Of a DNA stretch of 40,499 bases, positions 15,545 through 18,027 are shown in pieces. The first letter of the stretch is position 1. Each line of letters opens with the position of its first letter. Origin of the DNA: Methanothrix sp. (GTDB lineage Archaea > Halobacteriota > Methanosarcinia > Methanotrichales > Methanotrichaceae); the NCBI GenBank assembly GCA_026394475.1, contig JAPKYD010000130.1, positions 1 to 40,499 on the forward strand. Direction: 5' to 3'. The notes below the pieces were generated by a model. The model did not search any database and was not told the origin of the DNA. It worked only from the letters and a program-made list of their open reading frames with translations. The translations under genes were made by a program, and so were the position numbers.

Positions 15545-15913
15545 TTATATTAAATACTCTACTACATATTTAGCCTTATTAAGTGCATCCTTGGCGCTTT
15601 GTGACAAAATACCCACAAAATTTTTGTCATAATCACATTGTTTCCGCAAAAAACCAAGATCCGCTAGTTCACTGGCAATTTTCTGTTCTTTTCTTACCTT
15701 TGCAAAATGTACTCTTAATCCAGAGTGATCGCGACCATTATTATAAGCGTTGTATCTCCTGCTCTCAACTTCATGATGAAAAGCATGACCATACGCAGCA
15801 AAATAGGCTCTACTTATCACCGCTCTTTGCCCAGATTCAAGAGTGTAAGTGCTATTTGTCTGTCCTCCAAGGAATTGTGCCACTTTAAGACATTCTGCCC
15901 CAACAAAGGCCAA
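15545..15913 (-). CDS. HEPN-like domain protein
   Basis: 122 aa all-helical. HEPN-style helix 'ISRAYFAAYGHAFHH', 'HSGLRVHFAKV', and C-terminal 'LRKQCDYDKNF...SAKDALNKAKYVVEYLI' resembling the LRxxADYD region of HEPN proteins. Confidence 0.65.
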   Translation of the reverse strand: MAFVGAECLKVAQFLGGQTNSTYTLESGQRAVISRAYFAAYGHAFHHEVESRRYNAYNNGRDHSGLRVHFAKVRKEQKIASELADLGFLRKQCDYDKNFVGILSQSAKDALNKAKYVVEYLI

Positions 15914-15919
15914 TTTGTA

Positions 15920-16456
15920 TCACCTTGTTGGGATATAATCGGTTGTCAATAAAAACCATCCTGTCATTTCATTAAGTAAATGATAATAGCCTTCTCTGAT
16001 TTTCTCTATTCGCTCCATCACGCTATCATCATATACCGGCACTCTTACACAGAGTGTCAAATATGCACTATCTGGATCATTATAATCCCTAACATCGAGA
16101 AGTAATTGAGCCTTAAAATCGAAATATTGATAAACCAAATTAGATACATCTCTCGATAATTTTGCAATCTCAGGATAGTGATATAGATATTCAAACACCA
16201 CGGAAGAGGATACGATTTTTACCCCCAGAGTACGGAAGTGTCTTAAAATATCTTCTATTAGGACCGATACGGAAACTGATTCCTCACCAGTGGGGTCATT
16301 CTCTTGTTCCAAAAAAGCCACCTCACGAATCTCATAACGTGGCGTACTCGGTTTAGACAAATATGAATCATGGGATTTAATTTCACTCACAACTAAAGAG
16401 CCTTCCTCCTCTCCTAGGACGACATCGAGGACCGGGCGAGATACTAATGATGCCAT
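15920..16456 (-). CDS. Uncharacterised protein of TIGR04255-like/HEPN-like cassette
   Basis: 178 aa ORF, 6 nt before the HEPN-like gene and 1 nt after the TIGR04255-like gene. C-terminus 'DPDSAYLTLCVRVPVYDDSVMERIEKIREGYYHLLNEMTGWFLLTTDYIPTR'. Confidence 0.75.
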   Translation of the reverse strand: MASLVSRPVLDVVLGEEEGSLVVSEIKSHDSYLSKPSTPRYEIREVAFLEQENDPTGEESVSVSVLIEDILRHFRTLGVKIVSSSVVFEYLYHYPEIAKLSRDVSNLVYQYFDFKAQLLLDVRDYNDPDSAYLTLCVRVPVYDDSVMERIEKIREGYYHLLNEMTGWFLLTTDYIPTR

Positions 16457-16457
16457 T

Positions 16458-17204
16458 TTATTCTTCCTCCTTGCAGAAGATCTCTCTTAGCGGAGGCAAA
16501 ATACAGCCCTCAAAAAGATTTTCTACCACTCCGTGTGCTTCCTCTATCCAATCCATTGACTGGGTTATTGGTATGCTCTGCGGTTTAGCCAAAAAATAAT
16601 CTATGCTTAAAAGGAAAGCTAATGCATTTTCAATCTCTGGCGTGGCATCTGTCAATTGAACTTGGCATCGATCTCGCTCGTCGGAATATGTAAAGAGGCA
16701 ACCTGCTATAAAATTAGCATGCGATTGGGGCAAATTTGGCCCGCAGAACGGTCTAAAATCGAAATATTTCTCTAAATCTACCTTGCCCTGCTCCGTAGGA
16801 ATCTCTATCTTATTGACATAACGCAGACCGATTCTTTGAACGCCCTTAAGCTCAACTCTCTCATTTAGTTTCTGAAAAGCATAATTAATCTGAGATTTAA
16901 AATCGCTCCATGAATGATAAGGCTTTAATCTATTTATCGATAGGATTCTCGGCCCCACTTGAATTAGCTTTTTTTTATCCTCTGATAGAAAACGAGCGAG
17001 AATAGTAGTATTAATCCGAGTACCTTTTACTGACGCATCTTGGAGCAGATTGATGTCTTGAAGTGCATGTTGCTCTATATGAGGGAACTCTTCGTGAATT
17101 TCGCCGTACATGATCCCTGGAGTCGTCAAATCCCAATTTGTATCGCTACTAAATCTAAATTCACAAACGGCTTCAATAATTGGTGTGTTATTATATTTTA
17201 CCAT
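16458..17204 (-). CDS. TIGR04255-like family protein
   Basis: N-terminus 'MVKYNNTPIIEAVCEFRFSSDTNWDLTTPGIMYGEIHEEFP', mid 'GVQRIGLRYVNKIEIP...DLEKYFDF', C-terminus 'ENLFEGCILPPLREIF'; consistent with TIGR04255. Confidence 0.7.
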   Translation of the reverse strand: MVKYNNTPIIEAVCEFRFSSDTNWDLTTPGIMYGEIHEEFPHIEQHALQDINLLQDASVKGTRINTTILARFLSEDKKKLIQVGPRILSINRLKPYHSWSDFKSQINYAFQKLNERVELKGVQRIGLRYVNKIEIPTEQGKVDLEKYFDFRPFCGPNLPQSHANFIAGCLFTYSDERDRCQVQLTDATPEIENALAFLLSIDYFLAKPQSIPITQSMDWIEEAHGVVENLFEGCILPPLREIFCKEEE

Positions 17205-17767: not shown

Positions 17768-17944
17768 TTAAGCGAGCGCGGGGACCAGGGCCTTAAGAGG
17801 GTCCTGTGTCTCATCTTTTACCAGACTAACTGTCATGTGTATGATAGCTTTCTTGTTTTCGATGCCAAGTGCTTTTCTCAACGCGAGCGGCATTAGCATT
17901 CGCCCCCGCTCATCAACTTCTATTATTGTTGTTAGCTCGCGCAT
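17768..17944 (-). CDS. AbrB/SpoVT-type DNA-binding protein
   Basis: 'MRELTTIIEVDERGRMLMPLALRKALGIENKKAIIHMTVSL' is an AbrB swapped-hairpin pattern. The longer ORF extends to 17995. Confidence 0.75.
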   Translation of the reverse strand: MRELTTIIEVDERGRMLMPLALRKALGIENKKAIIHMTVSLVKDETQDPLKALVPALA

Positions 17945-17988
17945 ATTTTTCCTATTAAGCATCGTTACTTTAAATATTTTTCCTCCTA

Positions 17989-18027
17989 ATACCATAAATT
18001 AGGAAATACTTAAATAGATTATGGTAT
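17989..18027. promoter_or_regulatory. Inverted repeat ATACCATAA...TTATGGTAT, candidate AbrB-family operator
   Basis: Perfect 9-bp arms at 17989-17997 and 18019-18027 in the divergent region between the AbrB-like gene and the 217 aa gene. Confidence 0.5.

Follow-up and report, generated by a model that had tools for sequence, protein, structure and literature searches.

A three-gene cassette of a TIGR04255 protein, an uncharacterised partner and a HEPN-like protein: a candidate defence-linked system shared by archaea and bacteria

The locus and its three genes

The stretch of DNA analysed here (the window) comprises 40,499 nucleotides of a Methanothrix sp. genome (contig JAPKYD010000130.1 of assembly GCA_026394475.1). 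Three consecutive genes, designated A, B and C, lie on its minus strand, separated by 1 nt between A and B and by 6 nt between B and C. Gene A (16458-17204) encodes a 248 aa protein of the TIGR04255 family with a predicted tandem-repeat fold resembling the TATA-binding protein (TBP), for which a role as sensor or coupling subunit is proposed. Gene B (15920-16456) encodes a 178 aa protein of an uncharacterised family, the putative direct partner and restrainer of C, while gene C (15545-15913) begins with a TTG codon and encodes a 122 aa HEPN-T-like protein, the predicted RNase effector. The G+C content is 0.37-0.44 across about 15.3-17.9 kb, the island that holds the three genes, versus 0.52-0.63 on either side. 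The flanks carry housekeeping genes of a methanogen-like archaeon, coding for a bifunctional NAD(P)HX repair enzyme, a PPIase, the replication factor C small subunit, class I tRNA synthetases, methenyl-H4MPT cyclohydrolase and a DUF2114 protein. A preliminary description of this DNA had reported three closely spaced same-strand genes in an AT-richer island between housekeeping genes, and the open reading frames, their spacing and the base composition all agreed with it. Besides the cassette, no defence genes were identified in the flanking part of the window, and promoter and terminator scans returned signals at the level of shuffled sequence. A 75 aa AbrB/MraZ-like ORF with a weak similarity to HgcC (HgcAB-associated protein), below the cut-off, was observed upstream of the cassette at 17768-17995.

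The gene A product matched the NCBIfam model TIGR04255 with an E value of 4.1e-44 and a score of 151 bits (cut-off 30), the alignment covering model positions 1-251 of 252. On its sequence A belongs without doubt to this family of unknown function, as the preliminary description had proposed. Searches of the open-access literature for TIGR04255, its other names and UPF0332 retrieved no mention, and nothing was found for A by sequence in the PDB. The AlphaFold2 model of A (mean pLDDT 87.9) consisted of two beta-alpha-beta-rich halves, and its best PDB fold matches in Foldseek were TATA-binding proteins (E 3.4e-4), although superposition on TBP was poor (TM about 0.26-0.38; for the match at E 3.4e-4, TM 0.28/0.37 and rmsd 11 Å) despite a Foldseek probability of 1.00. 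The model can be read as a TBP-like tandem topology, which does not prove DNA binding.

No significant match was obtained for B in Pfam, NCBIfam or PADLOC, antitoxin families included, and no relative was detected by sequence in the PDB. The structure model displayed a pLDDT of about 50 at residues 1-60 and mostly over 90 in a compact alpha/beta core; when searched against the PDB with Foldseek it gave no match below E 0.08 and no confident fold, in keeping with the earlier remark that the middle protein had no recognised fold. The N-terminal region (residues 1-56, 16289..16456, minus strand) is predicted to be disordered and varies in length and sequence among the homologues. Near the C-terminus, the signature GWFLLTTDY (residues 166-174, 15935..15961, minus strand) contains G, W, T, T and D residues that are invariant in the family alignment. 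The core model also gave one borderline match to the model of an unnamed viral protein of 104 aa, A0A823A1N8 (E 1.3e-3, TM 0.68 on the target), which could be a virus-borne B-like partner; viral contigs yielded no relatives, whether the scan used the B sequence by itself or the alignment of its family. One candidate relative of B (L007) was rejected as a false match lying inside a long sensor-like protein.

Taken alone, the window copy of C matched no HEPN model in Pfam, NCBIfam or PADLOC. Its family did: 10 of 23 members matched the Pfam HEPN model PF05168 with E values of at most 0.1, the lowest being 1.4e-8, and the family profile matched the HEPN proteins 9xbd (1.9e-5), 9xbc (1.5e-4) and the retron-Kva2 HEPN 36ht_I (1.9e-3) in the PDB. 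By virtue of these family matches C is a HEPN protein, in agreement with the HEPN-like label given in the preliminary description; it has no canonical Rx4-6H motif. The TTG start looks right, because the translation then opens with M-x-F, two invariant positions of the family.

Spread of the cassette and the B-C pair

Only B was used as bait for the retrieval of related loci, and the neighbouring genes were then read for A and C; since neither of these served for retrieval, their presence at B loci constitutes independent evidence. Among 197 genomes of the host phylum, the search identified five true relatives. A further one lay on a plasmid of Thermus brockianus, and a scan of GTDB genomes gave 21 loci, two of which were the same contigs as phylum matches, leading to 26 distinct B-bearing loci including the window. 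An intact A-B-C cassette in the same order and on the same strand occurred in 19 of them, that is in 18 loci besides the window, with A proteins of 21-49% identity. Co-occurrence of the three families, on which the preliminary description had staked its proposal beforehand, was therefore observed. All three genes were also present at L029, where A is broken and C truncated, B-C occurred without an intact TIGR04255 gene at four loci (L011, L019, L026 and L030) and B stood alone at two (L028 and L031). The archaea among the B-bearing loci are Methanocalculus, Methanocorpusculaceae, Methanotrichaceae, Methanofollis, Methanogenium and Methanothrix, and the bacteria are Armatimonadetes, Desulfobacterota, Zixiibacteriota, Proteobacteria, Chloroflexi, Rokubacteria, Coatesbacteria, Bacteroidia and Thermus.

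The 197 genomes of the host phylum were also surveyed for each family, and B was found in 11, a C-like HEPN protein in 25 and TIGR04255 in 30. B directly adjoined C in all 11 cases, and all 11 C matches below E 1e-28 adjoined B. A TIGR04255 gene lay upstream of B at six of these 11 loci. Three of the other five loci were read. Two of these, in archaea of one family in the phylum, carry a different first gene, of 228 aa at L068 (2036-2719) and of 204 aa at L072 (1995-2606); the possibility that these were divergent TIGR04255 members was rejected, as hhalign found no detectable relation to A. In the third, L070, a different ORF of 482 aa precedes B-C. Among the loci retrieved with B, yet another protein, of 234 aa, occupies the first position at L030, and L011 and L026 have no gene in this slot; A is thus not needed everywhere. 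On cyanobacterial plasmids, a B-like gene of 119 aa overlaps or abuts a HEPN gene, and comparison with hhalign showed this set of B-like proteins to be homologous to B (probability 98, E 2.7e-13). From the phylum survey and these cyanobacterial pairs, sequence comparison identifies B-C as the core pair, with a slot for A that is empty or filled by another protein at some loci. The three-gene unit of the preliminary description is accordingly a conserved cassette, but its constant part is the pair. At L026 (3886-6580, bacterium HR16), the B-C pair was observed between two permease genes of an apparent sugar ABC transporter operon.

For the 19 loci with a full cassette, the distances between copies of A, of B and of C were correlated with one another (r 0.68, 0.74 and 0.78, permutation p 0.0002), values that shared ancestry alone would also raise. 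In the concatenated tree, the copy at L002, whose genome belongs to the same family as that of the window, grouped with the Thermus plasmid copy with a support of 0.997. Judged from the correlated distances and from this grouping of an archaeal with a Thermus sequence, the cassette evidently moves between domains as an intact unit. The C gene of the Thermus brockianus plasmid (L008, 5411-5803) is missing from the distributed gene table; its ORF is intact and conserved.

TIGR04255 genes also head other small gene sets (L010, L034-L039, L046 and L048). At L048 (1486-2971) the TIGR04255 gene is followed by a gene for a 131 aa protein and then by an overlapping gene for a PemK/MazF-like toxin (E 1.5e-9); the three-gene plan is that of A-B-C, with a different toxin. 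At L046 (1486-3208) it is followed by genes for proteins of 139 aa and 178 aa, the latter with a 'QGDI...SQSCDL' pattern, and visual inspection showed similar patterns in genes further along at L034, L037 and L010; proteins of this type may represent an unnamed effector family. L010 (G000:C110, 11819-12547) is a second, divergent TIGR04255 gene of the window's genome, followed by ORFs of 81 aa and 102 aa that appear by eye unrelated to B and C. At L038 (4001-5849), a TIGR04255 gene and two unknown genes were noticed in a Pantoea plasmid-borne prophage, between the lysis genes and the terminase. This interval is a usual site of defence cargo in prophages. The variety of gene sets headed by TIGR04255 suggests that the family acts as a reusable head, to which one or another effector is joined. 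We tentatively extend this to a general scheme, doubtful as it still is, in which TIGR04255 would be the common sensing head of modular three-gene defence systems of archaea and bacteria. Each would combine a TBP-like protein with a small adaptor in the middle and a toxin that can be exchanged (HEPN here, PemK/MazF at L048, the 'QGDI...SQSCDL' protein at L046), and the trigger would be a nucleic acid or protein of a virus to which the head binds.

Defence neighbourhoods and a proposed mechanism

The genes surrounding the related loci were inspected and neighbouring defence genes were confirmed with PADLOC models. The cassette lies inside a type I restriction-modification (R-M) operon at L023, in the order hsdM-hsdS-[A-B-C]-hsdR, where hsdR was identified by similarity to that of L020, and it is followed by hsdR at L020 and by Cas5c-Cas8c-Cas7c at L024. 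An AbiLi-like ATPase is encoded downstream of A-B-C at L027, a type II methyltransferase upstream of it at L014, and CopG/VapC, a methylase and cas6 near it on the Thermus brockianus plasmid. A B remnant lies between an hsdS-like and an hsdR-like gene at L031 and another ahead of a Cas5c-like gene at L028, these neighbours being identified by similarity to the L023, L020 and L024 sequences. The defence link suspected in the preliminary description is thus seen around several relatives, as instances at named loci and not as a rate above background.

We propose that A-B-C is a mobile, defence-linked cassette of the toxin-antitoxin or abortive-infection type, in which B restrains the RNase C and A couples the complex to a trigger, a reading in which we place about even confidence. 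C would be a HEPN ribonuclease that works as a dimer and independently of metal; its active site would be non-canonical, formed by His63 and the Arg of an R-x3-D-Y motif, and Tyr37 would lie close by. B, which constantly neighbours C, would bind C and hold it inactive, and A, as a TBP-like tandem-repeat protein, would attach to the B-C complex and link it to a signal of infection, perhaps a nucleic acid or protein of the virus, upon which C would be released. Once freed, C would cut RNA, most likely tRNA, and growth would stop. If this is true, the cassette represents a compact immune module common to methanogenic archaea and bacteria, placed between R-M subunits or beside CRISPR operons and possibly provided with a TBP-like sensor. 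TIGR04255, a family of unknown function, gains a conserved set of genetic partners and a testable role.

A simpler interpretation, which we consider rather improbable, is that B and C form a plain two-gene toxin-antitoxin pair that spreads by selfish maintenance, A being an accessory, for instance a TBP-like DNA-binding autoregulator, and phage defence being incidental. The occurrence of B-C without A in L011 and L026, the pairs of C with homologous B-like proteins on cyanobacterial plasmids, the plasmid carriage and the tight gene spacing are all consistent with such a pair, and the predicted resemblance of A to a DNA-binding fold would suit an autoregulator. However, A is kept in most loci, distant ones included, and its slot can be refilled by another protein of 200-odd aa, which suggests a real role for the first-slot protein; the finding of copies within an R-M operon and next to a cas operon also argues against this interpretation.

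The canonical Rx4-6H motif is absent from the C family, and all 23 members carry R-x3-D-Y instead; His63, Arg89 and Asp93 (family numbering) and the Tyr are invariant in these 23 diverse sequences. In the window, all on the minus strand, the motif S34-R35-A36-Y37 is encoded at 15803..15814, the invariant His63 at 15725..15727, the invariant Arg90 of the R-x3-D-Y motif (Arg89 in family numbering) at 15644..15646 and the invariant Asp94-Tyr95, which stand where HEPN proteins have their canonical His, at 15629..15634. Since no Rx4-6H motif is present, an alternative RNase site made of His and Arg must be assumed. According to Anantharaman et al. 2013 (PMC3710099), the HEPN-T variant has D for H and a conserved His elsewhere and is predicted to be active, the distant His and a basic residue of the motif being a possible alternative RNase site. 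In the retron-Kva2 HEPN protein, His64 and Arg122 of both chains meet at the dimer interface with Tyr40-42, and the mutations H64A, R122A and Y40-42A abolish defence against T5, in which tRNA is degraded (PMC13405049, 2026 preprint). In the HMMER alignment, Tyr37, Tyr38 and His63 of the C family fall on Tyr41, Tyr42 and the catalytic His64 of Kva2, the window protein having Y37, F38 and H63. This alignment is weak (E 0.002) and ends before the Arg; within it the His and two of three Tyr positions correspond, and the Arg of C, outside the aligned stretch, would be the equivalent of Arg122. The positions of these residues suggest that C has the alternative His and Arg site proposed in 2013; C would be a HEPN effector whose active site is non-canonical, of the kind predicted in PMC3710099 and now seen in a retron.

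Alternatively, C might be a HEPN protein that binds RNA but does not catalyse a reaction, and the cassette might encode a toxin-free complex for regulation or for the handling of RNA. No member has the canonical motif, some HEPN domains without it are thought to be RNA binders (PMC3710099) and the L026 copy lies inside a sugar ABC transporter operon, all of which would fit; yet the invariance of His, Arg, Asp and Tyr in 23 diverse sequences would be needless for a passive binder, and Kva2, which has its His and Tyr in the same positions, is active as an effector (PMC13405049). We judge a non-catalytic C unlikely. Even less credible, and in our opinion very improbable, is a type VII arrangement of the HepT-MntA kind, in which C would be a HEPN toxin chemically modified by B or A. 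HEPN toxins are commonly paired with nucleotidyltransferases, and the Asp-Tyr beside the Arg could serve as a modification site, but profile searches gave no nucleotidyltransferase match for A or B and the conserved residues of B form no MNT motif. Finally, the idea that unrelated genes came together by chance in an AT-rich patch between genes, to which the unusual composition of the island and the lack of identified defence neighbours in the window might point, is refuted by the conservation of gene order in 19 loci of two domains and by the 11/11 adjacency of B and C, and its probability is practically negligible.

Comparison with known systems

HEPN effectors are well known in defence. A, B and C matched no PADLOC 2.0.0 model at E up to 1, and the three-protein arrangement was found neither in PADLOC 2.0.0 nor in the searched open-access literature. 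The preliminary description had called the system undescribed, which holds for the cassette within the sources searched, as no PADLOC 2.0.0 model covers it and no open-access paper was found to name TIGR04255, but not for the clustering of HEPN-T genes with R-M operons, already reported in 2013 (PMC3710099). The HEPN-T variant (PF05168) with D for H is one of the closest described systems: C shares its HEPN signature, with R-x3-D-Y for Rx4-6H and an invariant upstream His, and some A-B-C copies likewise lie in or near hsd operons. That paper lists HEPN-T solos and MNT fusions, and in the parts covered here a cassette with TIGR04255 and a B-type partner was not found.

The HEPN effector of retron-Kva2, a type IX retron, is non-canonical like C, with Y41/Y42 and H64 aligned with Y37/Y38 and H63 of the C family, and it is held in a multi-protein complex, as we propose for C. 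In contrast, neither a reverse transcriptase nor a retron ncRNA was observed among the parts of the cassette, the similarity is weak (E 0.002) and A and B have no known relation to the Kva2 parts. HepT-MntA (HEPN-MNT, type VII toxin-antitoxin) resembles A-B-C in having a small HEPN protein beside a small partner in an operon, whereas the cassette has neither a nucleotidyltransferase nor the Rx4-6H motif. PrrC, associated with the type I R-M system PrrI, contains an ABC-ATPase domain that the cassette lacks, so that its functions would be split here over three small proteins. Like C at L023, however, PrrC is a HEPN-type gene inside an hsd operon, and this shared position suggests that the cassette may act as a backup to restriction.
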